The notes under the pieces are model-generated. The model did no database searches. It was not told the origin of the DNA and saw only the letters and a list, made by a program, of their open reading frames with translations. This document shows, piece by piece, positions 9,747-32,428 of a DNA stretch of 64,000 nucleotides. This DNA is from Afipia sp. OHSU_II-C1 (GTDB taxonomy: Bacteria; Pseudomonadota; Alphaproteobacteria; Rhizobiales; Xanthobacteraceae), in assembly GCF_000497575.1 (NCBI RefSeq), contig NZ_APJI01000006.1:332001-396000 (forward strand). Direction: 5' to 3'. Every line of letters starts with the position of its first letter. The first letter of the stretch is position 1. Made by a program: the position numbers and the translations under genes.

Positions 9747-9771
9747 TGGTTCGACCAAATTGGCATATCCA
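9747..9771. promoter_or_regulatory. Tandem GntR-type operator, site A (dioxygenase operon side)
   Basis: TGGTTCGACCA (9747-9757), AAT, TGGCATATCCA (9761-9771): two TGGN5CCA palindromes 3 bp apart. It lies 75 bp upstream of the FAD oxidase start. The motif matches the TGGTnnnACCA-type core bound by many FadR-subfamily regulators. Confidence 0.65.
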
Positions 9772-9869
9772 ATTCGGTCGGTCAATGGTTCTCGGAGTAG
9801 ATAAGCACCCCGGAGCTACGCCACCGCGACAACATTCGCCTTGACACCGCCGCCAAGAGCACGCTTGAA

Positions 9870-9894
9870 TGGTATGACCAGATTGGATGTGCCA
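9870..9894. promoter_or_regulatory. Tandem GntR-type operator, site B (ABC operon side)
   Basis: TGGTATGACCA (9870-9880), GAT, TGGATGTGCCA (9884-9894). It has the same tandem layout as site A and lies 160 bp before the first permease gene. Confidence 0.65.
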
Positions 9895-10031
9895 GATTGC
9901 AACTGATCTGCAAATAGAGAACTCACCTCATTTTTTGATGAGCGGGCGTTCAGCGGCCTTTTTCACATAGAGAGGGACAAGAGCGTGGTGCTGTCGGACC
10001 AAGCCAATCTGCATGGTGAGCGCGCCCTCCA

Positions 10032-11000
10032 ATGGACCGCGTCATGCTGAGATATCTAATTCGTCGCCTTGTCGCCCTTGTGCCGACGTTCCTGTTAGCG
10101 AGCGTTATTGTGTTCTCGGCCATTCGCCTGATACCGGGAAACACGATCGACATGATGATGTCGCAGAACGACATCTCGGCCAGCGTCCAGACCCGCGAAG
10201 ATCTTATCAAGGCACTCGGGCTCGATCAGCCGGTCCTTGTACAATATTGGCACTGGATCAGCTCGATTGTGTTCCACGGAGATTTCGGTCGCTCGCTTTG
10301 GACGGGAGATAGCGTCACCCGCCTCGTCGCCGAGCGCATGCCGATTACTCTGTATCTAGGCGTGCTGGCCATGATATTCGCGCTCTTGATCGCGCTGCCC
10401 GTCGGGATCATCTCGGCGATCCGGCAAAACAAGCCGGTCGATTATCTCGGCCGTGTCTTTGCCATCACGGCCCTGTCCGTCCCGCCTTTTTGGCTCGGGA
10501 CATTAGTGGTGGTCGTGCCGGCGATGCTCTGGGGGATCGCTCCGACCGTGCAATATGTTCGGCTGACCGACGATCCCCTCCTTAGCCTCCGCCAGATGGT
10601 GCCGCCCGCCATCGTCCTCGGCATCGCCTTGTCGGGAGTGACGATGCGGATGACCCGCACCATGGTCCTCGAAGTCATGCGCCAGGATTATGTCCGTACA
10701 GCTTGGAGCAAGGGTCTCGACGAGCGGACGGTCGTCCTGCGCCATGTCCTCAAAAACGCGCTTCTGCCGGTCATAACCATCGTCGGGTTGCAGTTGCCCC
10801 TGCTGATCGGTGGCGCGGTCGTGATTGAGCAGATCTTCGTGATCTCCGGTATGGGCCAACTACTCCTGATGGCGGTGTCGCAGCGGGACTATCCGGTCAT
10901 TACGGGCATCTTTCTTCTCGTGGGCGTCGGCGTAATGACGATCAACCTGCTCGTCGACATCAGCTACGCCCTCCTAGATCCCAAGATTCGTCAGGGCTGA
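10032..11000 (+). CDS. ABC transporter permease, DppB/OppB type
   Basis: A 322-residue inner-membrane permease with a first transmembrane helix at LVALVPTFLLASVIVF, five further hydrophobic segments and the EAA-like loop around YVRTAWSKGLDERTVVLRHVLKNALLPVITI. It is one of two permeases of a peptide/opine/nickel-class (family 5) importer. The start could equally be Met5 at 10044 (MLRYLIRRL), which is where most relatives begin. It is the first gene of a five-gene plus-strand operon downstream of operator site B. Confidence 0.88.
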   Translation: MDRVMLRYLIRRLVALVPTFLLASVIVFSAIRLIPGNTIDMMMSQNDISASVQTREDLIKALGLDQPVLVQYWHWISSIVFHGDFGRSLWTGDSVTRLVAERMPITLYLGVLAMIFALLIALPVGIISAIRQNKPVDYLGRVFAITALSVPPFWLGTLVVVVPAMLWGIAPTVQYVRLTDDPLLSLRQMVPPAIVLGIALSGVTMRMTRTMVLEVMRQDYVRTAWSKGLDERTVVLRHVLKNALLPVITIVGLQLPLLIGGAVVIEQIFVISGMGQLLLMAVSQRDYPVITGIFLLVGVGVMTINLLVDISYALLDPKIRQG

Positions 11001-11004
11001 ACGC

Positions 11005-11907
11005 ATGACTATCGAGTCACCTCTGAAGATCGAAACAGGTCCCGGGCGAGGCGCTTGGGCAGCACCCGTCAGGACTTTCTTCAGTCGCCTTTTTAAGCAG
11101 GATATCCTCGGAACGGTTTGCGCCGGCCTTCTCGCCGCGATCGTGGTCTGCGCACTCTTGGCACCTTGGATCGCACCGTACGACTTCGACGCGATCGACC
11201 TTACATCGCTGATGCAAGGGCCGTCCTGGTCGCACCACCTCGGCACAGACGAACTCGGACGCGACATCCTCAGCCGCATCATCTATGGAGCCCGTACTTC
11301 CGTTATCGTCTGTATCACCGCCGCGCTGCTATCGCTCGCCCTATCGGTCACGCTCGGGGTTCTGTCCGGGTATTTCGGCGGACGTCTCGATGCCCTGGTT
11401 CAGCGGTTCGTCGATACCTGGCAGAGCTTTCCCGACCTAATCGTGCTGATCGCGGGCGTCGCGGTTCTCGGCCCCGGGATCGTGCAGATCATCGCCCTCC
11501 TCGGCATCCTCTACGGCGTTGCCGGTTCGCGCATCGTACGCGGCGCGGTCCTGTCGGCGCGCGAGCAACTGTACGTGCAGGCGGGCCATTCCTTCGGCGC
11601 CGGTAACTGGCACATTATTCTCCGGCACATCCTGCCGACGATCGCCGCGCCCCTCATCGTGCTTTACACCACGCGCCTCGGCGGCGTGATCCTGGCCGAA
11701 TCGAGTCTCAGCTTCCTTGGTCTTGGTGTGCCACCGCCCGCACCCGCGTGGGGCCGTATGCTGAGCGATGCCCGCCCTTACATGTTCGAGAACGTCTGGA
11801 TGGTCGCGGCCCCTGGCCTCGCGATAACTCTGATCGTTTTTTGCGTGAACATCTTCGGAGACTCTCTCCGCGATCTTCTCGATCCACGCGGAATAGTGCG
11901 CAATTGA
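11005..11907 (+). CDS. ABC transporter permease, DppC/OppC type
   Basis: A 300-residue second permease of the importer, with the N-terminal OppC-like helix (TVCAGLLAAIVVCALLAPWIAPY), the GTDELGRDILSRIIYGAR motif characteristic of DppC/OppC, and the coupling loop near EQLYVQAGHSFGAGNWHIILRHILP. It starts 4 bp after the DppB-like stop. Together the two form the membrane pore. Confidence 0.9.
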   Translation: MTIESPLKIETGPGRGAWAAPVRTFFSRLFKQDILGTVCAGLLAAIVVCALLAPWIAPYDFDAIDLTSLMQGPSWSHHLGTDELGRDILSRIIYGARTSVIVCITAALLSLALSVTLGVLSGYFGGRLDALVQRFVDTWQSFPDLIVLIAGVAVLGPGIVQIIALLGILYGVAGSRIVRGAVLSAREQLYVQAGHSFGAGNWHIILRHILPTIAAPLIVLYTTRLGGVILAESSLSFLGLGVPPPAPAWGRMLSDARPYMFENVWMVAAPGLAITLIVFCVNIFGDSLRDLLDPRGIVRN

Positions 11908-11940
11908 GCGAAAAACCATAACACTAAGGAGGAGCAAGGA

Positions 11941-13638
11941 ATGGTAGGCCGACATCTCGGAACTATGGCGGTTATCGCGCTCGGGACTGTGATTGCGACC
12001 CAAGCCGTGAGCGCCCAGGAACCCAAATACGGTGGCACGCTGACCATCGTTCCTTACTCCCCGGGGATTGCGGCGTTGTCGTGGGATCCCGCCGACTGGA
12101 ACTGGAAGGTCTCTATCGATGCTGGGCCCTACATGGAGCAGTTGATGGTGGGCGATCTAAGCAAAGGCGTACGTGGCGGCGGGAAGAACAACTTTTTCAG
12201 CGAGGCCTGGCTCAGCGACGACGTGCTGCGCGGCGAACTCGCAGAGAGCTGGGAGGTCGTCGACAAACCGCTCTCGATCGTTATCAACCTGCGCAAGAAC
12301 GTGAAATGGCAGGCCTGCAAAGGCATCATGGAAGCGCGCGACTTTACCGCCAAAGACGTCGTGTTCGCGTATAACCGTCTCGTCGCTAGTCCGAAGGCGA
12401 ACAAAGTCTATTTTTCCTTCATCGACAGGGCCGAGGAGACGGGACCGCACCAGGTGACCTTCTTCCTGAAGGAGTACAACTCGGAGTGGAAGTACCGCCT
12501 CGGCTACGGCTATTACGCCGGCATCTATCCCAAAGAGATCACGGAGGCCCCTAACGGCGGTGCTGGCAACTGGCAGAATGCCTGCGGCACGGGTCCCTTC
12601 CGGTTGACGCGGTATGAGGCCGGGGCCTTCGGGGATTATCAGGCTAACAAGGAGTACTGGGACCGCGAGACGATCGACGGCAAACCTTACAAGATCCCAT
12701 TCGTCGATAACCTTGTGATGCGGACGATCGGGGATTCACAGACACGCCTAGCCGCCTTCCGCACCGGCAAGATCGATGTCATGGCGAATATCAACTGGGA
12801 CGAACTCAAGTCACTGGCGCCGATCCAAGATAAAATCAAAGTCATCGAACACCCCGACTATGCGGGTGAGGCACTGGCAATGCGGGTCGATGCACCACCC
12901 TTCGACAACCCGAAGGTGCGTCTCGCCTTGAATCTCGCGGTCGACCGGGCCGCCATCTCGAAGCAGATCTATGGCGGCCACGCCGACTTTCCGCACCTGC
13001 CGATGGACGAAACTTGGGAAGGCTATTTCACGCCGCCCGAAAAGATGCCGAACGATGCCCGGGAGGTTCTCCAGTACGATCCGGCCAAGGCCAAGAAGCT
13101 CCTCGCCGAAGCGGGTCTTGCGAATGGTTTCGAGTTCAAGGCACAGGTTCCGAGCTTCCCTGAGCAGCTAAAGAAAGCGCAGATTGTAGCCGGATATCTG
13201 TCGGCAATCGGCGTAAAGATGACCATCGAGCCAAAGGAGTATGGAGCGTTTCTCAGTCTGATGACCACCGGCAAGCACGGCCCCGGCTATTGGCATCTCG
13301 CAGGCATGAGCAATCCGACGGCCTCAATCGAGAAACTGTACCGGTCCTCTTCCGTCTGGAATTCGGCCCGCGTCAACGACCCGAAGGTCGATGCGGCACT
13401 CGACACCATCCAGCAGGAGAGGGACCCGGACAAGGTCAAGAAGGGCGTCGCCGCGCTCACCAATGAGATGACCGCGCGAGCGCCATTCCTGTTTCTGCCC
13501 AGGCCGCGCTCGTTCACGGTATGGTGGCCGTGGGTCAAGAATTACTATGGTGAGATTTCGGTCTCCGCTCGGCGTGATGCGCCGGTCTGGGCGCGCGCTT
13601 GGATCGATCAGGATCTAAAGAAGTCGATGGGCTTCTGA
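11941..13638 (+). CDS. Periplasmic solute-binding protein, family 5 (peptide/opine class)
   Basis: A 565-residue SBP_bac_5 protein with a signal peptide (hydrophobic MAVIALGTVIATQAVSA, cleavage near AQE). The GGTLTIV opening strand, the AESWEVVDKPLSIVINLRKNVKWQ region and the AKKLLAEAGLANGFEF repeat are typical. The ribosome site AAGGAGG lies just before the ATG. Family 5 proteins bind peptides, opines, nickel or glycosides, and catabolic islands often recruit them for aromatic or amide substrates, so the annotation peptide transporter should not be taken literally. Confidence 0.88.
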   Translation: MVGRHLGTMAVIALGTVIATQAVSAQEPKYGGTLTIVPYSPGIAALSWDPADWNWKVSIDAGPYMEQLMVGDLSKGVRGGGKNNFFSEAWLSDDVLRGELAESWEVVDKPLSIVINLRKNVKWQACKGIMEARDFTAKDVVFAYNRLVASPKANKVYFSFIDRAEETGPHQVTFFLKEYNSEWKYRLGYGYYAGIYPKEITEAPNGGAGNWQNACGTGPFRLTRYEAGAFGDYQANKEYWDRETIDGKPYKIPFVDNLVMRTIGDSQTRLAAFRTGKIDVMANINWDELKSLAPIQDKIKVIEHPDYAGEALAMRVDAPPFDNPKVRLALNLAVDRAAISKQIYGGHADFPHLPMDETWEGYFTPPEKMPNDAREVLQYDPAKAKKLLAEAGLANGFEFKAQVPSFPEQLKKAQIVAGYLSAIGVKMTIEPKEYGAFLSLMTTGKHGPGYWHLAGMSNPTASIEKLYRSSSVWNSARVNDPKVDAALDTIQQERDPDKVKKGVAALTNEMTARAPFLFLPRPRSFTVWWPWVKNYYGEISVSARRDAPVWARAWIDQDLKKSMGF

Positions 13639-13641
13639 TCG

Positions 13642-14640
13642 ATGCACGGAACTTTGGAAATGTCGGGGCCCCCGATACTGGATGTACGCGGGCTCTGCGT
13701 GGGCATCTGGTCGGGCAAGACGGAGCTGAGTGCTGTCGCAGACGTTTCGTTCCGGGCCTATTCAGGCCAGGTCGTGGCGCTCGTAGGCGAAAGCGGCGCG
13801 GGCAAGAGCATCACCGCGATGTCGCTCACCCATCTACTGCCAATGCCACCGATCAAGATCACGGCCGGCGAAATACGCCTCTCCGGCCGTGATATGCAGA
13901 CGCAGTCACCAAAACAGATCAGGGACATCCGAGGCAACGAGGTCGGCATCGTTTTCCAGGAGCCGATGACAGCGCTGAACCCAAGCCTGCGCATCTGGCG
14001 CCAGATCGCCGAGCCGCTGGTGCGTCATCGCCGGATGTCCTGGAGCGCCGCCAAAGCGCAGGCGATCTACCTTCTCAAGAAGGTCCGCATCCCGGATGCA
14101 GAGACCAAAGCCGAGGCCTATCCTCACCAGCTCAGTGGGGGTATGCGCCAGCGTGTCATGGTTGCTATCGCGATCTCCTGCGAGCCAAGACTCATCATCG
14201 CGGACGAGCCGACGACAGCACTCGACGTCACCGTGCAGGCGCAGATTTTGACGCTTCTCACTGACCTTACCCGCGGATTGGGCGGGGCGCTGCTTCTCAT
14301 CACGCACGATCTCGGCGTCGTGGCGCGCTACGCCGACTGGGTCAACGTGATGTATGCCGGCCGCATCGTCGAGACAGCGGCGGCCGACGACCTCTATCGC
14401 GATGGGCGCCATCCTTATACGCACGCCCTCCTCGCCTCCGTGCCCAAGATCGTCGGTCCGATCGCTCATCGGCTCGAGTCGATCGCTGGGCAGCCACCCG
14501 CCCCCTCCGACGGAACCGGGGGCTGCGCCTTCGCACCGCGCTGCCCACGTCGGACCGAACGGTGCGACGAACGCCCTCCGCTTAGCGGCGACGAACGCAC
14601 ACGGAACGGCCATCTGTTCGCGTGCTGGAATCCGCTATGA
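13642..14640 (+). CDS. ABC transporter ATPase, DppD/OppD type
   Basis: A 332-residue ATPase with Walker A GESGAGKS, signature LSGGMRQRVMVAIA, Walker B LIIADEPTTALDV and the C-terminal oligopeptide/dipeptide domain with clustered cysteines (GGCAFAPRCPRRTERC). The start is ATG at 13642 or Met7. Its gene overlaps the next ATPase gene by 4 bp. Confidence 0.9.
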   Translation: MHGTLEMSGPPILDVRGLCVGIWSGKTELSAVADVSFRAYSGQVVALVGESGAGKSITAMSLTHLLPMPPIKITAGEIRLSGRDMQTQSPKQIRDIRGNEVGIVFQEPMTALNPSLRIWRQIAEPLVRHRRMSWSAAKAQAIYLLKKVRIPDAETKAEAYPHQLSGGMRQRVMVAIAISCEPRLIIADEPTTALDVTVQAQILTLLTDLTRGLGGALLLITHDLGVVARYADWVNVMYAGRIVETAAADDLYRDGRHPYTHALLASVPKIVGPIAHRLESIAGQPPAPSDGTGGCAFAPRCPRRTERCDERPPLSGDERTRNGHLFACWNPL

Positions 14641-15677
14641 ACGACGTAGCAACGAATATTCTCGAGGTCTCGGACCTGTGCGTCGACTATGCAAGCACAA
14701 CCTCTTTCGGCGTAACGGGCGCCCCCTCCGTTCGAGCTGTCAAGGGCATATCCCTCACACTCCAGCGCGGCGAAACTCTCTCGCTCGTCGGCGAAAGCGG
14801 TTGCGGCAAATCCACCACGGCCATGGCCATACTACAACTGACGCCGCCGAGCGGCGGCCGGGTCGTGTTCGACGGACGCGATATCACGGGCTTCAGTCAT
14901 CGCCAGATGCGACCGCTAAGGCGTGAGATGCAGATCATCTACCAGGATCCGTTCGGGTCGCTAAATCCCCGCATGACAATCGCCGACCTGATCGCCGAAC
15001 CGATGGCGATTCAGGGCGTCGGCAGATCGGGCCACGAGCGCCGCGCGAAGGCTGCCGAACTCCTAGATACGGTCGGAATGGGTACTCGCTTCCTCGACCG
15101 CTATCCGCACCAACTCAGCGGCGGCCAGCGTCAGCGGGTCGCCATCGCGCGCGCCCTGTCACTGCGTCCGAAACTGCTCATCTGTGATGAGCCGGTCTCA
15201 GCTCTCGACGTCTCAGTGCAGGCCCAGGTTCTGAACTTGTTTTCCGACCTCAAGGAGCAGTTCGGCTTGTCCTATCTGTTCATCTCGCACGACCTCGGCG
15301 TCGTCCGACACATGAGCGATCGGGTCGCAGTGATGTATCTCGGACGCATCGTCGAGATCGCGACGCGCGACGACCTCTACGGCGAACCGCTCCATCCCTA
15401 CACGCGCATTCTTCTCGATGCGGTAGCGGTGCCGGACCCGCAAATCGAGCGCGCCCGCGATCACGTGCTCCTTCAGGGCGAGGTGCCGAGCGTCGCCACC
15501 CCCCCGCCCGGCTGTCCATTTCACCCTCGCTGTCAGTCCGCCATGCCGGTCTGCAGCCGCGAAATTCCGCCGCTGCGGTTGCACGGCAATCGGCAGATCG
15601 CCTGCCATCTGTATGATGAGACAGCAGCCAATAAGGCAATCGAAGCCGCGATGGACGGAAATGGCAATCCAAACTAG
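14637..15677 (+). CDS. ABC transporter ATPase, DppF/OppF type
   Basis: A second ATPase of about 346 residues: Walker A GESGCGKS, signature LSGGQRQRVAIARAL, Walker B LLICDEPVSALDVSVQAQ, C-terminal PGCPFHPRCQSAMPVC. The ATG at 14637 overlaps the previous stop (ATGA) and is preferred to the upstream GTG at 14622. It is the last gene of the importer operon and is convergent with glcF, 27 bp away; I see no strong terminator hairpin between them. Confidence 0.9.
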   Translation: MNDVATNILEVSDLCVDYASTTSFGVTGAPSVRAVKGISLTLQRGETLSLVGESGCGKSTTAMAILQLTPPSGGRVVFDGRDITGFSHRQMRPLRREMQIIYQDPFGSLNPRMTIADLIAEPMAIQGVGRSGHERRAKAAELLDTVGMGTRFLDRYPHQLSGGQRQRVAIARALSLRPKLLICDEPVSALDVSVQAQVLNLFSDLKEQFGLSYLFISHDLGVVRHMSDRVAVMYLGRIVEIATRDDLYGEPLHPYTRILLDAVAVPDPQIERARDHVLLQGEVPSVATPPPGCPFHPRCQSAMPVCSREIPPLRLHGNRQIACHLYDETAANKAIEAAMDGNGNPN

Positions 15678-15704: not shown

Positions 15705-17012
15705 CTAGCCCAAGCACCCCTTTAGGACGTCAGGCAACGGGCCGCCCATCGCCCAATCGACCAACTCCACCGTGTGGACGACTGGAATGCGTGTTCCAGC
15801 ACCAATCTGCGTTATGCAGCCGAGATTTCCACTCGCAATGATTTGCGGTTTGACCTTCTCAATGTTGGTGACCTTTCGTGCGCGCAGTCGATTGGCGATC
15901 TCAGGCTGCAGTACGTTGTATGTTCCGGCGGAGCCGCAACATATGTGGCCTTCCGGTACTTCTCTCACTACAAACCCCATTCGCCTCAAAAGTGACTTCG
16001 GCTGATCTCTAACCTGCTGTCCATGCTGCATCGAGCATGCCGAATGGTAAGCCACGACCTGGCCGGTAGTCCGAACACCGTCTTGAAGCGGTAATTCATG
16101 CAAGAATTCTGTGATGTCCCGCGCTAGAGCCGAGATCCGTACGGCTTTCTGAGCGTAGGCGTTATCGTTGCGAAGTAGGAAGCCATAATCTTTAATGACC
16201 GTTCCGCAACCGGACGTCGTAACCACGATGGCGTCGAGGCCGCCGTTCTCGATTTCGCGTGTCCATACATCCACGTTGTGTCGAGCCGCATCCAGCGCCC
16301 GACTTTCGTATCCCAAGTGCTGCACGAGAGCTCCGCAGCACCCTTCGTCGATCGGTTGAACTACTTCGATACCGTGACGCGTCAACAACCGGATTGCAGC
16401 CTCGTTGATGTTCTGGCCGAGGACCTGCTGGGCACATCCGCTCAGAAGCGCAACCCGACCGCGCGGCCTATCGACGGTCGCGCCCGGTAACCTTCGGGTC
16501 GGCCTTCTTCGCTTGAATGACGACGAAAGTTCAATCATCGCGGCGAGTTGCGCGCCGCCGGGAAGATTGGCGAGCCACTTTCTGATCGGCCTGCTCACGG
16601 TAGCCACGCGTAAAGCCAACCTAAGTCGGCCCGGAAACGGCAGCACCTTCGCCAACATGCCTCGAAGCAACCGATCAGGCAGAGGACGCGTATAGGTTCG
16701 GGCGATATGGGCTCGCGCGTGATCGACCAGGTGCATGTAGTGCACGCCGGACGGACAGGTCGTCATGCAGGAAAGACACGTCAGACATCGATCGATATGC
16801 TCGACGACCTGAGGGGTCGCCGGCTTTTCCTCCTCCAACATGTCCTTGATCAGATAGATGCGCCCGCGCGGACTGTCCGCTTCGTCACCAAGAAGCAGAT
16901 ATGTCGGGCATGTCGCAGTACAAAAGCCGCAATGCACACAGGCACGGAGGATTTTTTCTGACTCGCTTACATGTGCATCGGCCAAGGCCGTCAGCGAGAA
17001 GTTTGTTTGCAT
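15705..17012 (-). CDS. glcF: Glycolate oxidase iron-sulfur subunit
   Basis: A 435-residue subunit with two [4Fe-4S] ferredoxin motifs, CVHCGFCTATCP and CLTCLSCMTTCP, followed by two CCG-type cysteine-rich domains (DEGCCGALVQHLG and HICCGSAGTYN). It passes electrons from the FAD subunits to the respiratory chain. Gene order glcD-glcE-glcF with 12-16 bp gaps is the usual one. Here it closes the minus-strand operon that begins with the acyl-CoA ligase at 23792. Confidence 0.92.
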   Translation of the reverse strand: MQTNFSLTALADAHVSESEKILRACVHCGFCTATCPTYLLLGDEADSPRGRIYLIKDMLEEEKPATPQVVEHIDRCLTCLSCMTTCPSGVHYMHLVDHARAHIARTYTRPLPDRLLRGMLAKVLPFPGRLRLALRVATVSRPIRKWLANLPGGAQLAAMIELSSSFKRRRPTRRLPGATVDRPRGRVALLSGCAQQVLGQNINEAAIRLLTRHGIEVVQPIDEGCCGALVQHLGYESRALDAARHNVDVWTREIENGGLDAIVVTTSGCGTVIKDYGFLLRNDNAYAQKAVRISALARDITEFLHELPLQDGVRTTGQVVAYHSACSMQHGQQVRDQPKSLLRRMGFVVREVPEGHICCGSAGTYNVLQPEIANRLRARKVTNIEKVKPQIIASGNLGCITQIGAGTRIPVVHTVELVDWAMGGPLPDVLKGCLG

Positions 17013-17028
17013 ACCAGTCCGCCTCGCC

Positions 17029-18222: not shown

Positions 18223-18234
18223 ACTCCCGTCACC

Positions 18235-19671: not shown

Positions 19672-19758
19672 CGTATCCTCGTCATCGGATATTTTTCCGA
19701 TGGGTCAGTCGCGGCCTGATGCAATCGACATAAGCCCGACGCATCCACCATCGAGCTT

Positions 19759-22210: not shown

Positions 22211-22235
22211 TTCCGTCCGTCCGGTCTATAATTCG

Positions 22236-23893: not shown

Positions 23894-23918
23894 TGGTAGG
23901 ACCAGTTTGGTATGATCA
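23894..23918. promoter_or_regulatory. Tandem GntR-type operator, site C (ligase operon)
   Basis: TGGTAGGACCA (23894-23904), GTT, TGGTATGATCA (23908-23918). On the minus strand a perfect -35 TTGACA (23933-23928) precedes it, so the operator would cover the -10 region of the ligase operon promoter. The -10 itself is weak. Confidence 0.65.
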
Positions 23919-24007: not shown

Positions 24008-25393
24008 CTAAGCCGCCGCGTCGCGCACGTAACGTGCAGTGCGGGTACGCATAGTCACCAGTTCCTCGGCGGAGGTCGGGTGCAGCGCCATAGTGGCGTC
24101 GAAGTCCGCCTTGGTAGCCTTCATCTTTACGGCAATGGCGATGACCTGAACCAATTCGGCCGCGTCCGATCCAACGATATGGCAACCCACGACGCGGTCG
24201 CTCCCCGCGTCAACCACCAGTTTCATCAACACCCGCGACTCGCTGCCGGACAGCGTCGCCTTCAACGGGCGGAACGCCGCCTTGTAGACATCAACGATAG
24301 CGAACTGCGCCCGCGCCTGCGCCTCGGTGAGGCCCACGGTGCCGACCTGGGGCTGCGTGAACACGGCGGTCGGAATATCGATGTGATCGACCTTGACCGC
24401 CCGCTTGCCGAAAACCGTATCGGCGAAAGCGTGGCCCTCACGGATCGCTACCGGCGTCAGATTGAAGCGATGGGTGACGTCGCCGACCGCATAGATATGT
24501 GGCACCGAGCTCTGCGAGGCTTCGTTGACGACGATGCCTCCGTTATCCGGGTTGATGGCGACGCCGGCTTTCTCCAGCCCGAGATTTGCGACGGCGGGGT
24601 GACGGCCGATGGCGAACATCACCTTGTCGGACGCGATGCTGGAGCCATTCGACAGGTGCGACGTGTACCAATCGTCGTGCTTCTCAATCCCGTCGACCGT
24701 GCAACCGGTCAGGATGGTAATGCCGTTCTTCTCCATCTCATCGCGGACATGGGCGCGGACGTCGTCGTCGAAGCCACGCAGGATGTTGTCGCCGCGATAG
24801 ACCACAGTCACGAGGGAACCCAGGCCCGAGAAGATGCACGCAAACTCCAGCGCGATATAGCCACCGCCCTGGATCAGGATACGCTTCGGCAATTCGGGTA
24901 GATGAAATGCTTCGTTCGATGAGATGACATGCTCGATGCCGGGAATGGCCTTGCCGTGGTTCGGTGCGCCGCCCGTGGCGATCAGGATATACTTCGAGCG
25001 CACCCTCCTGCCGCCGTCGAGCACCAGCGTATGCGGGTCCTCGAACACGGCGCGCGACTTGATCACCTGCACGCCAGATTTCTCCACGTTGGTGGTGTAG
25101 GCCGCTTCCAGCCGGGCGATCTCCTTGTCTTTGTTGGCGATCAGGGTGGCCCAGTCGAACGTCGCCGGCGGAACGGTCCAGCCGAAGCCCGCGGCATCCG
25201 CGATGTCGTGGCTGAAATGCGAGGCGTAGGCGAATAGCTTCTTCGGTACGCACCCGCGAATGACGCAAGTGCCGCCCATCCGATATTCCTCGGCGATCAT
25301 GACGCGGGCGCCATGGCCAGCGGCGATCCGCGCGGCGCGCACGCCGCCCGAGCCGCCACCTATGACAAACAGATCCGTCTCAAAGCTATCCAT
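24008..25393 (-). CDS. gor: Glutathione-disulfide reductase
   Basis: A 461-residue flavoprotein with FAD site GGGSGGVRAARIAAGHGARV, the redox disulfide in GGTCVIRGCVPKKL, an NADPH-binding IQGGGYIALEFACIFSGLGS and the C-terminal MALHPTSAEELVTMR with the active-site His-Glu pair. It regenerates glutathione. Carriage of a private gor inside a catabolic island that also has a GST points to a glutathione-consuming step. It starts 120 bp from operator site D and is divergent from the GntR gene. Confidence 0.93.
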   Translation of the reverse strand: MDSFETDLFVIGGGSGGVRAARIAAGHGARVMIAEEYRMGGTCVIRGCVPKKLFAYASHFSHDIADAAGFGWTVPPATFDWATLIANKDKEIARLEAAYTTNVEKSGVQVIKSRAVFEDPHTLVLDGGRRVRSKYILIATGGAPNHGKAIPGIEHVISSNEAFHLPELPKRILIQGGGYIALEFACIFSGLGSLVTVVYRGDNILRGFDDDVRAHVRDEMEKNGITILTGCTVDGIEKHDDWYTSHLSNGSSIASDKVMFAIGRHPAVANLGLEKAGVAINPDNGGIVVNEASQSSVPHIYAVGDVTHRFNLTPVAIREGHAFADTVFGKRAVKVDHIDIPTAVFTQPQVGTVGLTEAQARAQFAIVDVYKAAFRPLKATLSGSESRVLMKLVVDAGSDRVVGCHIVGSDAAELVQVIAIAVKMKATKADFDATMALHPTSAEELVTMRTRTARYVRDAAA

Positions 25394-25513
25394 GCTGGGA
25401 AATCAATTCTTTAGGTGGATTTGGCGCGTTTCAGATGCTTCAATTTCCTCAACCTGATATCTACTGAAGCAGGGCGGATTCGACCGAGATCCTCAAGGTT
25501 CCTCCAAAGTACT

Positions 25514-25536
25514 GGTCGACCAATTTGGTCGGCCAT
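25514..25536. promoter_or_regulatory. Tandem GntR-type operator, site D (gor / gntR)
   Basis: TGGTCGACCA (25514-25523), ATT, TGGTCGGCCA (25527-25536). Each half is one base shorter than at the other sites (TGGN4CCA). It lies between gor and the regulator gene, so it could mediate autoregulation. A looser TGGT...ACCA pair occurs at 25566-25580. Confidence 0.55.
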
Positions 25537-25595: not shown

Positions 25596-26324
25596 ATGAC
25601 TGAGCGAAATCGAACCGACAAGCTTGAGGCTCCTTCGAACGCCATCGGAAAGATCCTTTCCTTCATCCGTGAGCGCCGCTATCAGCCCTCCGAACGGTTG
25701 CCATCAGAACGCGACTTTGCGGAAAAGTTCGACACCAGTCGCGGCGCGGTTCGAGAGGCTCTGGCCGCACTTGAAACCATGCGAGTGATAGAACGGCGCC
25801 CAAATTCTGGAATCTATCTGCGAAAGATCGAAGAGAGCAGCATCGATGCTCTAGTGCTTTATGCTGAATCCGGAGTTCCATTCGAGGCCAAGGAAATCGC
25901 CGACGTCATGGAGGTCCGGCGCATGCTCGAAGGGCAGGCGGTCAGGTTGGCCTGCACACGCAGGACCGCGGACAACATTCGCGAGATCACCGCCATACTT
26001 GAAGAGACCAACAAGCGCCTATCCAAAAAGCAAAGCATAGAGCGCGAGGACGAGGCGTTCCATCTTGCGATTTTTGCTGCAACCAAGAACGACATTTTGC
26101 TGCGCGTGGCGAGATCGTTCTACGAACTGTCCAGGCATCGACGGAAGGTCTACTTTGCCGACCAAAATCGAGGTCGACAATCTTATGAGGACCATTGCAC
26201 CATCTTGGAAGCGATCGAAGAGCGGCGGGTAGGCCTAGCCGAACAACAGATGAACGCTCACCTCTCGCGAACAGTGGAGGCATGGCAATCGCTTCTAGGG
26301 GAAACCAAAGTCACAAAACGTTAG
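25596..26324 (+). CDS. FadR-subfamily GntR transcriptional regulator
   Basis: A 242-residue regulator: an N-terminal winged helix (ILSFIRERRYQPSERLPSERDFAEKFDTSRGAVREALAALETMRVIERRPNSGIYL) and a C-terminal FCD domain of six helices with the metal/ligand residues in DEAFHLAIFAATKN and a later DHCTILEAIEERR. FCD proteins usually repress and release DNA on binding an organic acid. It is the only regulator inside the catabolic island and an operator lies in its own upstream region, so it is the natural candidate to bind all seven tandem sites. That link is inferred. Confidence 0.9.
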   Translation: MTERNRTDKLEAPSNAIGKILSFIRERRYQPSERLPSERDFAEKFDTSRGAVREALAALETMRVIERRPNSGIYLRKIEESSIDALVLYAESGVPFEAKEIADVMEVRRMLEGQAVRLACTRRTADNIREITAILEETNKRLSKKQSIEREDEAFHLAIFAATKNDILLRVARSFYELSRHRRKVYFADQNRGRQSYEDHCTILEAIEERRVGLAEQQMNAHLSRTVEAWQSLLGETKVTKR

Positions 26325-26411: not shown

Positions 26412-27398
26412 CTAACCTTTGAGCGCACCCGCCGTCAGCCCTGCGACGAAATATCGATAGCAGAACATAAAGATAACGAACAACGGCAGAGCAATAAGGG
26501 TTGCGCCGGCGAGTATCTCACCCCAACGCAGATCTTGCGCGCCAAGCATTGATGCCAAGCCCACGGGCAATGTCTTGCGATCATCACTCATGATGAGGAT
26601 GAGCGCGAATACGTAGTCCGCCCAGGACAGCAAAAACGAGAAGATGCCGACCGTAATCAAGCCGGGGGCCGAAAGCGGAAGGACCACCTTGATGAAGGCG
26701 CCGAATTGGGAACAGCCGTCCACCATTGCCGCTTCCTCCAGATCGAACGGCATCGATTTGAAAAAGCCCCATAGCAGCCACACCGCCAGCGGCAGCGAAA
26801 TCGCCAGGTGAGCGATTAGCAGGCCCCACAAGCTATCGGCTAAGCCAGCTATTCGGAACAAGGCGGACATCGGAATAACCAACATCAATGGCGGAAACAT
26901 GTAGGCGAACAGCATGGACGCGACCAACGTCGTTTTGCCCCGAAACCGTAAACGCGTCGCTCCATAAGCAATGAATGATGACAGCGTCGTCGCCACGGCA
27001 ATCGTAGCCATAGCCATCATGACGCTATTAACGAAATTCGCCGGATAGTTCGTAAGCTGCAAGAGTGACTTGTAAGAGCTTAGATCGGGTGGCCAGAAAA
27101 CCAAGGATGAATCCAGAAATAGCTTTTCGGGCGACCTCAGACTGGAGAGGATCATCCAGTAGATCGGGAAGAAGGAATAGATGCAGATTAGCGCAACCGC
27201 GGCATACAAACCGACGCGGCCGGCAATCTGCTTCAGCGACTTGCCGTAATACCGCGTCGTTTTCCCGTGCGAGACTGAAGGTGTGGAGTCTGAGATTTCT
27301 CTTCCTGAGCCGCTAGAGCTATGCAACATCCGCACCGCTCGTGAACCAACGACGACAGCGGCAGCAGAGCGGGCTTGATTTTGAGTCGACATCGTCAT
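26412..27398 (-). CDS. ABC transporter permease, MalG-like (carbohydrate class 1)
   Basis: A 328-residue permease with a long polar N-terminus of about 65 residues, six hydrophobic segments (LYAAVALICIYSFFPIYWMIL first) and the EAA loop EEAAMVDGCSQFGAFIKVVLPLSAPGLITV. It pairs with the MalF-like permease whose stop it overlaps by 4 bp. CUT1-type importers take up oligosaccharides, polyols or glycerol phosphates; the ligand here is unknown. Confidence 0.88.
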   Translation of the reverse strand: MTMSTQNQARSAAAVVVGSRAVRMLHSSSGSGREISDSTPSVSHGKTTRYYGKSLKQIAGRVGLYAAVALICIYSFFPIYWMILSSLRSPEKLFLDSSLVFWPPDLSSYKSLLQLTNYPANFVNSVMMAMATIAVATTLSSFIAYGATRLRFRGKTTLVASMLFAYMFPPLMLVIPMSALFRIAGLADSLWGLLIAHLAISLPLAVWLLWGFFKSMPFDLEEAAMVDGCSQFGAFIKVVLPLSAPGLITVGIFSFLLSWADYVFALILIMSDDRKTLPVGLASMLGAQDLRWGEILAGATLIALPLFVIFMFCYRYFVAGLTAGALKG

Positions 27399-28267
27399 CG
27401 TCCCTGCTTGGCCTCGTCGATCGGAAAAACCCTGAGGTAAATCAAGATAATGCTCGCCAACATCAAGAACGAGATGGTGGCGACAGCGGCCCCCCCTCCC
27501 AAGTCGAACTCGAGAAACGCTTTTCGGTAGGCCAACGTGGGAAGCGTCTCGGTTTCGTTGAGCGGTCCGCCCTTCGTTAGAAGCCAGATCACGTCGAACT
27601 TGTTGAACATCCAGATCCCTCTCAGGAGGATGACCACGATCAACACTGACCTCAATCCTGGCAGCGTGACATGCCAGAATTGCTTCATAACCCCTGCTCC
27701 ATCGACCCGGGCCGCTTCATACAGTTGAGCCGGAATGGATTGAAGGCCGGCAAGAACACAGGTCACGACAAACGGCGTCCAGATCCAAACGCTAACAAGG
27801 ACAATAGTCGCCTTCGCGCTCGTTGAATTACCTCCCCAATCGAACATCCCATATCCGAATGACGCGAAGACACTCTTGAGAAGGCCGTAGTTGGGATCAA
27901 GAATCCACTGCGTGATGAGGCAGGCGACGACCGTCGGAAGAAAATACGGCACGATTGACAGCGCCCGCACGACAGTCTGCCCCACAAACTGCCTATTGAG
28001 GACGAGCGCAATGGTGACGCCGAGAACGACTTGCAGCACGATCGCCGAGATGGCGATCGTGACACCGTTTAACAGCGAGCCCCAGAACAGCGGCTCACTA
28101 AGAACCTTCACGTAATTGCCAAGTCCCACCCACTGCGGCGGGTCGATGAACGACGCCGCTGTGTAGAAGGAGAGCTTTATCGAATAGAGGAGAGGTCCGC
28201 CAACAATTGTACCGAGTACCAGTACACCCCCGATGAACAAACCGATGATTCGCCAGTCCTGTCGCAT
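27395..28267 (-). CDS. ABC transporter permease, MalF-like (carbohydrate class 1)
   Basis: A 290-residue permease with six predicted membrane helices and the EAA motif YEAARVDGAGVMKQFWHVTLPGLRSV. It lies between the binding protein and the MalG-like permease in a four-gene minus-strand operon. Confidence 0.88.
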   Translation of the reverse strand: MRQDWRIIGLFIGGVLVLGTIVGGPLLYSIKLSFYTAASFIDPPQWVGLGNYVKVLSEPLFWGSLLNGVTIAISAIVLQVVLGVTIALVLNRQFVGQTVVRALSIVPYFLPTVVACLITQWILDPNYGLLKSVFASFGYGMFDWGGNSTSAKATIVLVSVWIWTPFVVTCVLAGLQSIPAQLYEAARVDGAGVMKQFWHVTLPGLRSVLIVVILLRGIWMFNKFDVIWLLTKGGPLNETETLPTLAYRKAFLEFDLGGGAAVATISFLMLASIILIYLRVFPIDEAKQGR

Positions 28268-28299
28268 AGCCTCGGGCCTCTATTCACCAGTTCCGATGC

Positions 28300-29661
28300 T
28301 CAGCCAATTTTTCGGATTCGATCGGCGGCGGCTTTCACGCAGTCGCTTGACGACATGTTCTTAAGAACCCGATTTTGCAGCATCTCCGGCATAATGTTCG
28401 CATCAAAGACCTTGCACGGTCGCAGATCAAACGACGGACCCGTCATATCTATTGAGTTAAGAACCGTCTTGCTGTCTTCATCAATGAACGACTTCATCTG
28501 CTCCATCGTCGCCCAATGCTTCTGAATCATCGGATGATTTTTCCACCGTGGATCTTCGTAAATGTCCAATCGCGCCGGTTGGAAATTCATCCAGGCGGAG
28601 TGCAGCCAGCGAATATAGTGCGCGTCAATAAACCATTGTAGAAACTTAAAGGCCGCCTCAGTCTGCTTAGTCTTGTAAAGAATAAAGCCATCGAAGGCGA
28701 AGGACAGTGCGTTCTGCTTACCAGCACTGTCTGGAGAAGCGAAAATACCATACTTGTTTGCGAGGTCCGGATTGCGAGCTTCCAGCGCCTCGACTACGCG
28801 GCCCGAATAGACGGTATGCGCAACCTTTCCCGTCGCGAAAAGACTCATCAGCTCAGCATAGCTGACCGTGTTCATGCCAGCCGGCATCGTTTTATAAAGA
28901 TCGGCATATAGATCGAGAAAACGGCCGGTCGGTCCGGCATTCCCCGGCGCATCGAGAACGACGTTCCACTTGTCGTCATAAAACTTCGGCGCGTCTGCAA
29001 ACAAGTTGCCGAAGCTCGCCCAGTTGGTGGCACTGTCACTCGCGAGCGGTATGACGCACCCCCCTCGCTCTATGTTGCCATCCTTCGCGACAGTCAGCGC
29101 CCGGCAATTCTCAAGGAACTCGGCCCATGTGTTGGGAACCTTCAGGCCCTTCTCCTGATACAGATCTTTTCTGTAGAAAACCGTCACCAAATTGTAGTCA
29201 TAGGGATAGAACCAATTTTCTCCCTTATATGACCAGGTTCCCTGCTTCCCCCACGAATATTTTTTGACAAGATCCGTCAACGGCACGATGTGACCCGCCA
29301 TCGCGTATTGCAAGATGTGCGCAATGTATCCCGCCGTGGCGATATCGTAAGGAGCGCCAGCATTGATGGCCGCCATCGACTTCGCATAACCACCACTAAT
29401 CGGCGTCGAGTCGACGACGATTTTTACGCCGAACTTGCTCTCGTATTCATTGCACGCATCGCGCAAGGCCGATTGGCTCGCAGCAGTCGTTTCAGCGTTC
29501 AAAATGCGAAGCGTTACCCCGGACTGTGCGTTGACATAGGGCGCGGAAAGTGAGCCCGCGATGCCAGCCGCTGCACCAGCCGTCGTTTTGAGAAAACGCC
29601 GCCGATCGATGTCGCTCACGTTAGCCTTGGAACTCGGCGCGCCTAAGCTGAGCTTGTCCAT
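28300..29661 (-). CDS. Extracellular solute-binding protein, family 1, Tat-exported
   Basis: A binding protein of about 453 residues with a twin-arginine signal DIDRRRFLKTTAGAAAGIAGS and likely cleavage after APYVNA. The remainder shows the SBP_bac_1 pattern (FGVKIVVDSTPISGGYAKSMAAINAGAPYDIATAG). The ATG at 29661 is chosen because GGGAGAG lies 6 bases upstream; an earlier ATG exists at 29682. Either way the gene overlaps the 3' end of the ATPase gene by 41 bp or more, so the two are coupled. Confidence 0.87.
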   Translation of the reverse strand: MDKLSLGAPSSKANVSDIDRRRFLKTTAGAAAGIAGSLSAPYVNAQSGVTLRILNAETTAASQSALRDACNEYESKFGVKIVVDSTPISGGYAKSMAAINAGAPYDIATAGYIAHILQYAMAGHIVPLTDLVKKYSWGKQGTWSYKGENWFYPYDYNLVTVFYRKDLYQEKGLKVPNTWAEFLENCRALTVAKDGNIERGGCVIPLASDSATNWASFGNLFADAPKFYDDKWNVVLDAPGNAGPTGRFLDLYADLYKTMPAGMNTVSYAELMSLFATGKVAHTVYSGRVVEALEARNPDLANKYGIFASPDSAGKQNALSFAFDGFILYKTKQTEAAFKFLQWFIDAHYIRWLHSAWMNFQPARLDIYEDPRWKNHPMIQKHWATMEQMKSFIDEDSKTVLNSIDMTGPSFDLRPCKVFDANIMPEMLQNRVLKNMSSSDCVKAAADRIRKIG

Positions 29662-30781
29662 GAAGTTCTCTCCCGTTGCCATTTTCGCCTTTCGTCGAGG
29701 TCCGCCTCAGTGTCTTGCCGCTCTCGCGCGAGAACAGGTGCAACTTCTCTTGAGACAAATTCACAAAAATTCGGTCGCCCGCCCTCAGCGCATCGTCCCG
29801 AGCAAATACCGCGCGGATTTTGTTGCCATCGATCTTACCCAGCACATAGGTTTGCGCGCCGATTTGCTCGACCAAGCCGACTACCAGCTCAAAAGCCGTG
29901 GAGGTTTCCGCGCGCTCGATGTGCTCGGGCCTAATGCCAAGCGTGACATCCCTTTCCGCTTCGGAGAATGACTGGGCAGGCAAGTTGACGCTCAAACCGC
30001 CGGAGCGCATTACGAGCGCGCCCCCGTCGCGCATCAACCCGCCATCAATCAGGTTCATCTCTGGAGACCCGATGAAAGTCGCCACGAAGGCGTTCGCGGG
30101 CCGATCATAAAGGTCAAGCGGACTGCCCGCCTGTTGGATGAATCCGTCACGCATGATCACGATACGATCGCCGAGCGTCATGGCCTCGACCTGATCGTGG
30201 GTAACAAATATCATCGTCGCGCCCAATCGGGCGTGTAGCGTCGCAATCTCTTCTCGCGTCCGGACCCGCAGCTTCGCATCAAGGTTCGAGAGGGGTTCGT
30301 CGAGGAGGAATACGTCGGGATCTCTGACTAACGCGCGACCAAGCGCTACGCGCTGCATCTGACCACCCGACAATTGGCGTGGCTTGCGCTCCAGCAGGGC
30401 CTCCAATCCGAGACTTGATGCCGCGCTGCGCACCCGACGATCGATCTCCTGCTGTGGCGTCCTACGGACCCGAAGGCCGAAGGCCATGTTTTCGAAGACC
30501 GTCTTCTGTGGATAGAGAGCGTAGTTCTGAAAAACCATCGCAATGTTGCGATCTTTCGGCGGAAGCGCGGTGACGTCCCTTCCGTCGATCAGAATCTTGC
30601 CGAATGTGACGTCATCTAGACCGGCGAGCATTCGCAACGTCGTGGACTTGCCGCAGCCGGACGGGCCGACGAACACGACCAGTTCGCCATCGGCAATATC
30701 CAACGAAAAGTCCTGAACGGCCCATGGCCCTCGATCTCCTCCAAAGGATTTCGCGACATTCTGGAGAGTTACTCGCGCCAT
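29621..30781 (-). CDS. ABC transporter ATPase, UgpC/MalK-like
   Basis: A 386-residue ATPase with Walker A VGPSGCGKST, Q-loop MVFQNYALYPQKTVFENM, signature LSGGQMQRVALGRAL, Walker B VFLLDEPLSNLDAKLR and a C-terminal TOBE/MalK regulatory domain (LGIRPEHIERAE). First gene of the CUT1 importer operon. The promoter region carries tandem operator site F. Confidence 0.9.
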   Translation of the reverse strand: MARVTLQNVAKSFGGDRGPWAVQDFSLDIADGELVVFVGPSGCGKSTTLRMLAGLDDVTFGKILIDGRDVTALPPKDRNIAMVFQNYALYPQKTVFENMAFGLRVRRTPQQEIDRRVRSAASSLGLEALLERKPRQLSGGQMQRVALGRALVRDPDVFLLDEPLSNLDAKLRVRTREEIATLHARLGATMIFVTHDQVEAMTLGDRIVIMRDGFIQQAGSPLDLYDRPANAFVATFIGSPEMNLIDGGLMRDGGALVMRSGGLSVNLPAQSFSEAERDVTLGIRPEHIERAETSTAFELVVGLVEQIGAQTYVLGKIDGNKIRAVFARDDALRAGDRIFVNLSQEKLHLFSRESGKTLRRTSTKGENGNGRELHGQAQLRRAEFQG

Positions 30782-30821: not shown

Positions 30822-30846
30822 TGGTTAAACCAATTTGGCAGGACCG
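30822..30846. promoter_or_regulatory. Tandem GntR-type operator, site F (CUT1 importer)
   Basis: TGGTTAAACCA (30822-30832), ATT, TGGCAGGACCG (30836-30846). It lies 41 bp upstream of the ATPase start on the minus strand. Confidence 0.63.
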
Positions 30847-30879: not shown

Positions 30880-30904
30880 TGGTTTGACCAATCTGGTCGC
30901 TCCA
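30880..30904. promoter_or_regulatory. Tandem GntR-type operator, site G (CoA-transferase)
   Basis: TGGTTTGACCA (30880-30890), ATC, TGGTCGCTCCA (30894-30904). It overlaps the -35 and spacer of the plus-strand promoter at 30884-30912, so binding should repress. Confidence 0.68.
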
Positions 30905-30912: not shown

Positions 30913-30968
30913 TAGTGCGGCCTCGCACGGCGCGCGGCTATTTGACCCGCAGACTTCAAGGAAGCGTG

Positions 30969-32216
30969 ATGGCTGGACCGTTGGCAGGTTATCGAGTGCT
31001 GGATCTTTCGAGAATCCTCGCGGGGCCTTGGTTAGCGCAGTTGCTGTCTGATCTAGGAGCCGAGGTTTGGAAGATCGAACGCCCTGGCACCGGCGACGAT
31101 ACGCGGCAGTGGGGCCCGCCCTTTCTGCGGAAAGACGGTGGAATTGATACGACCGAAAGCGCGTATTTCCTGAGCGCCAATCGCGGCAAGCATTCGATAT
31201 GCGTCGATATATCGACTGACGAGGGTAGCGCCATTGTGCGCGCACTTGCCCAGCAAGCCGATCTCGTGATCGAGAACTACAAGGTCGGCGACATGGCGCG
31301 TTACGGCCTCGACTACGAGGCGCTTAAAAGGGTCAAGCCTGACATCATTTACTGTTCCATCACCGGCTATGGCCAGACCGGCCCGATGAAGGACGTCGCA
31401 GGATACGATATGGCCATTCAGGCCATCGGCGGCCTGATGAGCATTACCGGAGAGAGTGATGACAAGCCAGGCGGGGGTCCGCAGAAGGTCGGGGTTCCGA
31501 TCGTCGATATTCTCACTGGCATGTATAGCGCCGCCGGCGTCATCTCCGCATTACTGCATCGCGAACGCACCGGAGAAGGACAGCATATCGACATGGCACT
31601 GCTGGACGTCCAGGTCGCGGTTCTCGCCAACCAAAATTTGAATTTCCTCACGACCGGCACGCCGCCGAAACGGTTCGGCAACGCGCATCCAAACATCGTT
31701 CCATATCAGGTCTTCAGAACCAGCGACGGTTCCTTCGTGCTCGCCGTTGGTAATGATCAGCAATTCCGGAAGTTCTGTGCAGCTACTGGTTTAAGCGGCC
31801 TGGCAACCGATAGCCGTTTCGTCACTAACACCGACCGGCTTAAGAATCGTGATCAACTCATCCCCCTACTCGATGCGCATCTGATACAGCAGACGACCCA
31901 GCATTGGATTTCCATTCTGGAGCCCGTGGGCGTGCCTTGCGCACCGATCAACCGGCTGGATCAGGTGTTCGCTCACCCTCAGGTTATCCATCGGGAGATG
32001 CAGGTCAATCTTCCTCATTCTTCCGGAACAACAGCCCCTCTCGTCGCCAATCCGATAAAGTTTTCCGGAACGAAGATCGAATATGCCAAAGGACCGCCGC
32101 GGCGAGGCGAGGATACTGCAAACATCCTCAAGTCGATACTGAAGTACGACTCGGCGGCCATCCAAGATCTAAGTGAGCGACGGATCATCGATATCGGACG
32201 TCCCGAAGTCGGCTAG
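30969..32216 (+). CDS. Family III (CaiB/BaiF) CoA-transferase
   Basis: A 415-residue protein with the classic opening GYRVLDLSRILAGPWLAQLLSDLGAEVWKIERPGTGDDTR, the NRGKHSICVDI strand and the catalytic Asp in VPIVDILTGMYSAAGV. These enzymes move CoA between carboxylic acids (succinate, formyl, carnitine, benzylsuccinate types). It could load CoA on a pathway acid as an alternative to the ligase at 22236. The ATG at 30969 has AAGGAAG before it; an earlier in-frame start at 30915 lies at the predicted transcription start and is not needed. Confidence 0.9.
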   Translation: MAGPLAGYRVLDLSRILAGPWLAQLLSDLGAEVWKIERPGTGDDTRQWGPPFLRKDGGIDTTESAYFLSANRGKHSICVDISTDEGSAIVRALAQQADLVIENYKVGDMARYGLDYEALKRVKPDIIYCSITGYGQTGPMKDVAGYDMAIQAIGGLMSITGESDDKPGGGPQKVGVPIVDILTGMYSAAGVISALLHRERTGEGQHIDMALLDVQVAVLANQNLNFLTTGTPPKRFGNAHPNIVPYQVFRTSDGSFVLAVGNDQQFRKFCAATGLSGLATDSRFVTNTDRLKNRDQLIPLLDAHLIQQTTQHWISILEPVGVPCAPINRLDQVFAHPQVIHREMQVNLPHSSGTTAPLVANPIKFSGTKIEYAKGPPRRGEDTANILKSILKYDSAAIQDLSERRIIDIGRPEVG

Positions 32217-32353
32217 GGGCCAAGAGCCCATATCACTCGTCGAATCGTCTCTTGGTCCGGCTGGATGGCAGGTTTGGCAGGAGCGAGCAGCAAAACGGCG
32301 AGCCCTGCGCCGAGGAGCAGGAACGCGGCCACGATCCTCCGGTATTGAAACAT
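32213..32353 (-). CDS. Unannotated 46-residue membrane micro-protein
   Basis: A short reading frame opposite the GMC gene: ATG at 32353 with GGAGAG 8 bases upstream, a hydrophobic helix VAAFLLLGAGLAVLLLAP (residues 8-25), then a polar tail KPAIQPDQETIRRVIWALGP and TAG, whose bases overlap the stop codon of the CoA-transferase gene. A -10-like TATAAT on the minus strand (32427-32422) could drive it. The layout is that of a single-pass or secreted small protein. I know no matching family. It could be a chance frame, but ribosome site, hydrophobic core and promoter argue for a gene. Confidence 0.45.
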   Translation of the reverse strand: MFQYRRIVAAFLLLGAGLAVLLLAPAKPAIQPDQETIRRVIWALGP

Positions 32354-32368
32354 GAGACGAGCTCTCCG

Positions 32369-32396
32369 TTGACTACCAGGCCTTCGTCGCTATAAT
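32369..32396 (+). promoter_or_regulatory. Strong sigma70-like promoter of the GMC oxidoreductase gene
   Basis: TTGACT (32369-32374) and a perfect TATAAT (32391-32396), 16 bp apart. The start site would fall near 32403, inside tandem operator site H. Confidence 0.6.
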
Positions 32397-32428
32397 TGGA
32401 TCGACCTGATTGGTAGGACCAATTATAG
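32390..32428. promoter_or_regulatory. Operator site H within a perfect 10-bp inverted repeat over divergent -10 boxes
   Basis: TGGATCGACCT (32397-32407), GAT, TGGTAGGACCA (32411-32421) is the seventh tandem site. It sits inside a longer perfect inverted repeat, CTATAATTGG (32390-32399) and CCAATTATAG (32419-32428), whose arms each contain TATAAT, one per strand. A regulator bound here would block both the GMC promoter and the leftward promoter of the micro-protein. Confidence 0.65.

Follow-up and report, generated by a model that had tools for sequence, protein, structure and literature searches.

The locus examined here, a 64,000-nucleotide stretch of the genome of Afipia sp. OHSU_II-C1 (hereafter the window), carries a catabolic island composed of several transcription units, and raises the question of whether these units are governed as one regulon by the GntR-type regulator encoded among them (gene start at position 25596). 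A 25-bp paired element consisting of two palindromes, TGGN5CCA-N3-TGGN5CCA, recurs upstream of the units. The first-pass annotation had listed seven such elements, and all seven were found in the window (Table 1), so that their presence is real and confirmed. The perfect form TGGTN3ACCA makes up one of the two palindromes in each of the six 25-bp elements, which agrees with the earlier remark that one copy is usually perfect. The seventh element, between gor and gntR, is indeed a 23-bp version with two shortened (10-bp) halves, but it starts at 25513 and not at 25514, as had been given; it is a candidate site for autoregulation of gntR.

To model chance occurrence, the window was simulated 1,000 times with a first-order Markov chain. 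Three exact matches were observed against a simulated mean of 0.002, and seven matches with at most one mismatch (the six 25-bp elements and one further site at 3805) against a mean of 0.105; none of the simulations reached either count. The excess is weak when three mismatches are allowed (38 vs 25.6, with 1 of 100 shuffles and 12 of 1,000 simulations as high). Scanning of periods 9–40 in the window gave three exact and seven one-mismatch pairs at period 14, and no exact and at most one one-mismatch pair at any other period. In a leave-one-out matrix analysis, five of the six held-back elements scored above all other non-training positions, and that at 9870 was beaten by one. The non-coding share of region 3593–34117 is 6.1% (listed open reading frames taken as genes), and all six 25-bp elements are intergenic. 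Within the 5.08-Mb genome only nine places match with at most one mismatch, seven of them in the window and two elsewhere, and all three exact copies fall in the window. Thus, the element is not equally common at random positions, the outcome which, according to the first-pass annotation, would have spoken against it. The additional one-mismatch site (3805–3829), which includes one perfect palindrome, is located inside the reductase gene and represents either a chance match or an internal site.

Comparison with related islands revealed which feature of the element is constant. A scan with the GntR protein yielded 19 loci. The diverged Afipia loci among the related islands (L029–L035; GntR 76–82% identical) contain 17 exact pairs at the 3-bp junction and none at the other 20 junctions tested (0–20 bp; halves of 10 or 11 bp); the pairs are partly orthologous and hence correspond to fewer than 17 independent events. 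Nine of these pairs combine 11+11-bp halves and eight 11+10-bp halves, and the gor-gntR element is kept (as judged by eye) as an 11+10-bp version in most of the diverged loci. The fixed 3-bp gap proposed earlier was therefore upheld by the orthologous islands, whereas the proposed 14 bp from centre to centre is not a constant, since the halves vary between 10 and 11 bp. The constant is the CCA-N3-TGG junction; a 14-bp period as a fixed quantity is ruled out by the 11+10 and 10+10 elements, which have the same 3-bp junction.

In the diverged islands the elements remain upstream of the same units. The element preceding the coenzyme A (CoA)-transferase gene keeps 19–22 of its 25 bases in seven loci (L026, L028, L030–L034), in which the left 50 bp keep 11–20 and the right 50 bp 11–32 bases. 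This retention, together with the relatives fetched by GntR sequence alone, lends good support to the idea of one regulon. In one near-identical island (L024, 10820–11464) the CUT1 transporter is largely lost, and the neighbouring elements are kept.

The link between element and protein was also surveyed in 397 genomes of the order. A degenerate period-14 pattern matched ten of them, the source genome included. At the other nine loci a GntR homologue was located within 1.5 kb in five cases, and in seven with wider stretches, while about 0.2 FCD neighbours within 1.5 kb are expected by arithmetic from the 17–85 FCD matches in these nine genomes. In a period-15 control, for which a broader query panel was used, no FCD homologue was found within 1.5 kb at any of nine loci, one of which (L081) is only 1,819 bases long. 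The fair comparison is thus 5/9 vs 0/9 within 1.5 kb, wider stretches having been taken only for the period-14 loci.

A protein search with GntR (E ≤ 1e-35; at most seven candidates scored per genome) returned at least 18 relatives besides itself, in 16 other genomes of the 397. The half-site matrix of the window was also run over thirteen loci not found by pattern. The best pair has period 14 in seven of them (L101, L102, L107, L030, L031, L033 and L035); this period was within the best four in L034, L104, L106 and L108, and was outside them in L103 and L105. Among 25 more distant FCD relatives (L043–L067, about 3.5 kb each) a period-14 pair occurs in one, L058, beside three at other periods. 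Seven distant-clade loci, four of which (L069, L070, L074 and L075) had been found via the period-14 pattern itself, hold six exact pairs at junction 3 and one at the other junctions of 0–20 bp. In a tree of the GntR relatives 17 of the 20 tandem-labelled rows fall within one clade of 25 rows (support 98); the support is a Shimodaira-Hasegawa-like approximate likelihood ratio only, from a short search with a warning of long branches. As the label covered distances up to 4 kb and tolerated one mismatch, L030, L033, L034 and L101 were scored as having none despite farther or weaker elements.

GntR relatives were found in 137 plasmid records, and seven loci were picked by protein from the 20 listed (L110, a DNA match with no gntR in its stretch, was excluded from the count). 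These loci contain six exact pairs at junction 3 and two at all other junctions; for locus L117 the numbers are two and none. Betaproteobacteria are included: on a Diaphorobacter plasmid gntR is immediately preceded by a pair of perfect palindromes, and the B. plantarii and C. metallidurans plasmid loci contain one exact 11+10 pair each. No exact pair was found in the Rhizobium etli plasmid locus. Three plasmids (L109, L111 and L112; GntR 59–60% identical) have a single exact pair together with one or more one-mismatch pairs in the divergent gap between ugpC and the CoA-transferase gene, which corresponds to the window gap with the 30822 and 30880 elements.

The protein encoded at 25596 contains an N-terminal GntR winged helix-turn-helix domain, beginning at residue 19 (51.5 bits), and a C-terminal FCD domain (91.4 bits), both over the Pfam cut-off, which places it in the FCD/FadR subfamily. 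The elements fit the operator form described for this subfamily by Suvorova et al. 2015 (PMC4494728), i.e. TKGT/ACMA palindromes with GT and AC typically 3 nt apart, and the FadR-subfamily assignment made at first reading thus agrees with both the domains and the published consensus. The best NCBIfam match is NanR (NF003011), with 115 bits far under the cut-off of 260; a NanR equivalog was rejected on this score and on the form of the elements, which are paired palindromes and not direct GGTATA repeats. GlcC, PdhR and LldR equivalogs were also rejected (67, 67 and 93 bits vs NCBIfam cut-offs of 301, 330 and 311, respectively). On visual inspection of the GntR alignment, an Asp column and three His columns seem to be conserved; they are candidates for the acidic and His residues of the FCD ligand/metal pocket. 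From synteny, we infer that the elements belong to the 25596 protein, which is very probably the regulator of all seven.

The following mechanism is proposed. Each element contains one near-consensus FadR-type palindrome and one weaker palindrome, joined by CCA-N3-TGG. We infer that a first GntR dimer would bind and fill the strong palindrome and would help a second dimer onto the weak one through contact of neighbouring DNA-binding domains, a proposal that fits the near-invariant junction with halves of 10 or 11 bp. Bound GntR would hinder RNA polymerase and so repress the island and its own gene; repression is proposed because, at recognisable promoters, the elements are located between the -35 and -10 boxes or adjoin them. 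A small carboxylate derived from the ether substrate (e.g. glycolate, glyoxylate or an alkoxyacetate) could bind the FCD domain and cause release. The complete explanation (GntR operators, two dimers cooperating across a fixed junction, repression and effector release) appears somewhat better than an even chance, our confidence having been lowered because the chosen elements alone could not prove a full second palindrome.

These chosen elements are 26 in number, taken by hand from the window, the Afipia loci and clade loci including pattern-found ones, with CCA in the weak half required for selection. In 22 of them the stronger palindrome has the perfect form TGGTN3ACCA, which the weaker one never shows; the near-fixed outer letters count for nothing, since the selection demanded them. 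In a choice-free test, both sides of every perfect TGGTN3ACCA in the window, the Afipia loci, L101–L108 and the plasmid loci were inspected (98 sides). TGG was found at junction 3 on 36 sides, and on 0–6 sides at each of the 12 other junctions (0–12). On 16 of these 36 sides an outer CCA at N4 or N5 completes the palindrome, and all other spacings from N0 to N12 together account for one CCA. By group, the second palindrome is complete in 3/6 cases in the window, 9/17 in Afipia, 3/4 on plasmids and 1/9 in L101–L108. As far as can be read from the DNA, the junction is general. A second palindrome in complete form is well represented in the island and its close relatives, and more distant members may have retained just a half-site.

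The alternative that survives best, although we consider it unlikely, is that a single GntR dimer occupies the strong palindrome and that the neighbour is the known FadR-subfamily half-site, contacted loosely or by one extra subunit. The weak palindrome of the 26 chosen elements keeps 91 of 104 letters in its inner half and 76 of 104 in its outer half, the outer CCA is missing on 20 of the 36 junction-3 sides (8 of the 9 in L101–L108), and weaker boxes 7–12 nt from the centre are described in 13 FadR-subfamily groups (PMC4494728), all of which would suit a half-site. It is countered by the concentration of outer CCA at the palindrome spacing (16/36 vs 1) and by loci L113 and L117, which hold pairs with two perfect palindromes. 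Longer arrays are not the rule: at -14 and +28 the mean scores hardly differ from background, the exceptions being a third unit in L071 and weak third units at 9747 and 23894 (the 9747 element is followed by a degenerate third half-palindrome at 9775–9785). A further exception is the YN2 plasmid (L117, 12477–12527), on which four successive half-palindrome units, each 3 bp from the next, precede the FAD (flavin adenine dinucleotide) oxidase gene.

As regards repression, inspection of the promoter regions revealed that in the 30880 element a -35 box (TTGACC) lies inside the first palindrome and a -10 box (TATAGT) starts 2 bp beyond the element, and that the 32397 element directly follows a promoter (TTGACT-N16-TATAAT) upstream of the GMC gene and abuts its -10 box. 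Promoter scores are clear against shuffles at both sites, and where promoters are clear GntR is probably a repressor.

Several results weigh against the proposed mechanism. At 9747, 23894 and 30822 the overlap with promoters does not exceed that of shuffled sequences, and at 9870 it is marginal. The 25596 protein has no N-terminal extension as long as the 32 residues of NanR. Those aldehyde dehydrogenases of Xanthobacter dioxanivorans YN2 that match the island are reported to be constitutive, very high on citrate and only about 3–4 fold up on dioxane (PMC8508750), a pattern that does not suggest tight repression. Raw counts in the survey are not enriched: period 15 matches 9/397 genomes, equal to period 14 minus the source genome, and the two periods are distinguished only by linkage to FCD genes. 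A strict pattern with both palindromes perfect and a variable gap matched, among 296 family genomes, a single one, at period 15, compared to about two dozen for the reversed control, and is therefore unfit for a census. No clear pair was seen in some of the relatives (L103, L104, L105 and L115), and the scarcity of outer CCA in L101–L108 must be added.

Some of these points would suit GntR as an activator or dual regulator, which we regard as improbable: promoter overlap is not significant for three elements of the window, the YN2 counterparts are expressed on citrate (PMC8508750), and GlcC, of the same subfamily, is called an activator (PMC11323563). What points to repression instead is the position of the elements ahead of the CoA-transferase and GMC genes, between the -35 and -10 boxes or right next to them, which recurs in Afipia.

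Binding of the elements by another regulator, either the nearby LysR or one of the other FCD proteins (the source genome has 10 FCD matches), is very improbable. The first-pass annotation had called the GntR protein the only regulator in the island; in fact LuxR, LuxI-like and LysR genes lie about 0.3–1.8 kb past the last island gene, but synteny favours GntR. The paired elements track this protein, since relatives fetched by GntR sequence carry them, and L021, L022 and L030–L034 keep the elements with no lysR match in stretches ending about 10 kb from gntR. Finally, an origin of the elements by chance or as a by-product of base composition, to which only the three-mismatch count, barely above shuffles, lends anything, is practically excluded, being contradicted by the simulations (0/1,000 reaching the exact or one-mismatch counts) and by conservation in diverged loci.

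Of the systems described, the operators compiled by Suvorova et al. are the closest. Their weaker box, 7–12 nt from the centre, coincides in position with the inner half of the present second palindrome (offsets 9–12); unlike those half-sites of unknown function, the neighbour in the present clade is a second, often complete palindrome at one 3-bp junction, clade-wide (PMC4494728). FadR palindromes with weaker adjacent half-sites are thus already published, and the window system is a variant of them, sharper and linked to a clade. E. coli NanR on (GGTATA)3 provides a published precedent for side-by-side FCD/GntR dimers, which bind cooperatively and need at least two repeats at a defined spacing; it differs in using direct GGTATA repeats, one dimer each, with cooperativity via the 32-residue N-terminal extension, where palindromes are found here (PMC8012715). 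Atu1419, a tetrameric VanR-type FCD regulator, is alike in its catabolic region, its palindromic sites and more than one palindrome per promoter region, but 190 bp separate its two palindromes, which the tetramer can loop together (PMC7797058), compared to 3 bp here. PdhR, LldR, GlcC and DgoR-type regulators share the GT-N3-AC palindromes (PMC4494728); a fixed 3-bp tandem was not met in the available portions of the literature on them, and DgoR is reported on two inverted repeats, with no spacing stated in the available text (PMC7674646). MpaR, a MocR-type protein (PMC10790758), was discarded as irrelevant. No description of a fixed full tandem operator for an FCD regulator was found in searches of open-licence papers.

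The usual picture of a FadR-type regulator is a single dimer on a single palindrome, and extra half-sites are left with no known function in the published survey (PMC4494728), while here a second site, often complete, stands at one spacing and on named plasmids. Tentatively, and at somewhat less than even chance, a distinct FCD clade of Alpha- and Betaproteobacteria, often encoded beside ether- or glycolate-linked genes, would use dimers whose cooperation is set by the junction, the weak palindrome tuning promoter sensitivity. If so, one transferable island would bring its own complete switch, and a regulator, its operators and possibly a biosensor would be at hand for islands that appear to degrade ethers such as dioxane.

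The function of the island is suggested by its relatives. The closest plasmid GntR relatives among the matches listed (60% identical) are those of X. dioxanivorans YN2 and Ancylobacter polymorphus. For the ligase gene, a counterpart with 92% DNA identity lies on a Sphingopyxis macrogoltabida EY-1 plasmid, near genes for GMC, aldehyde dehydrogenase (ALDH), glutathione S-transferase (GST) and FAD oxidase. The available text of PMC4675939 does not give the peg gene list. The YN2 plasmid order is glcF, glcE, glcD, GST, FAD oxidase, ALDH, ligase, gor, ALDH and GMC (glcE and glcD assigned by position and annotation), with paired elements before the FAD oxidase gene, before the ligase gene and in the ABC/CoA-transferase gap. 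GE05986–GE05988 (glcF, glcE and glcD), GE05991 and GE05994 (aldehyde dehydrogenases) are upregulated about 1.3–4.3 fold on dioxane in the YN2 transcriptome (PMC8508750); the five numbers fit the plasmid order, a match by gene order only, the naming schemes not being mapped directly. This agreement suggests ether catabolism, and catabolism of ethers toward glycolate and glyoxylate appears to be the likeliest role of the island.

The genetic organization of the island is summarized in Table 1. For nine of its open reading frames (ORFs), most of them parts of transporters, the names were given by eye or follow annotated relatives.

Table 1. Paired elements and gene units of the island, with positions in the window (ABC, ATP-binding cassette; DHAP, dihydroxyacetone phosphate).
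Feature	Position	Strand	Context	Basis
Exact paired element	9747–9771		upstream of minus-strand FAD oxidase-GST-Rieske dioxygenase-reductase unit	pattern match
Exact paired element	9870–9894		upstream of plus-strand Dpp-type ABC transporter	pattern match
One-mismatch paired element	23894–23918		upstream of minus-strand CoA ligase-ALDH-glyoxalase-like-GlcDEF unit
Short paired element (10-bp halves, 3-bp junction)	25513–25535		between gor and gntR
One-mismatch paired element	30822–30846		upstream of minus-strand CUT1 (UgpC-type) ABC transporter
Exact paired element	30880–30904		upstream of CoA-transferase gene
One-mismatch paired element	32397–32421		upstream of GMC oxidoreductase gene
Alkyl-DHAP-synthase-like FAD oxidase, GST, small ORF, Rieske dioxygenase alpha subunit, presumed beta subunit, reductase	3593–9723	-
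Dpp-type ABC transporter unit	10032–15677	+		binding protein by scan, remainder named by eye
CoA ligase, ALDH, glyoxalase-like protein, GlcD, GlcE, GlcF	15705–23792	-
Glutathione reductase-like gene (gor)	24008–25393	-		called gor in an annotated relative too
FCD-type (FadR subfamily) GntR regulator	25596–26324	+		Pfam domains, synteny with elements
CUT1 ABC transporter unit	26412–30781	-		annotated relatives
CaiB/BaiF-type CoA-transferase	30915–32216	+
GMC (choline dehydrogenase-like) oxidoreductase	32525–34117	+

Beyond the island, region 34448–38335 contains LuxR, LysR and TrbI genes (identified by scan) and a LuxI-like gene (by eye). Near-identical islands were found in Bradyrhizobium, Reyranella, Afipia and other records, and their presence across several families indicates recent transfer of the island. 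Since the TrbI, LuxR, LysR and LuxI-like genes adjoin it and near-identical copies occur in several families, a conjugative element is the probable carrier of the island.

For the CoA-transferase gene, the GTG listed as start (30915) follows the predicted -10 box at a distance of just a few bases, and the ATG at 30969 is probably the true start. The nearest solved structures to the FAD oxidase encoded at 8020–9723 are those of alkyldihydroxyacetonephosphate synthase, an enzyme of ether-lipid synthesis, and a GST gene travels alongside; the oxidase may have a putative role in ether cleavage.

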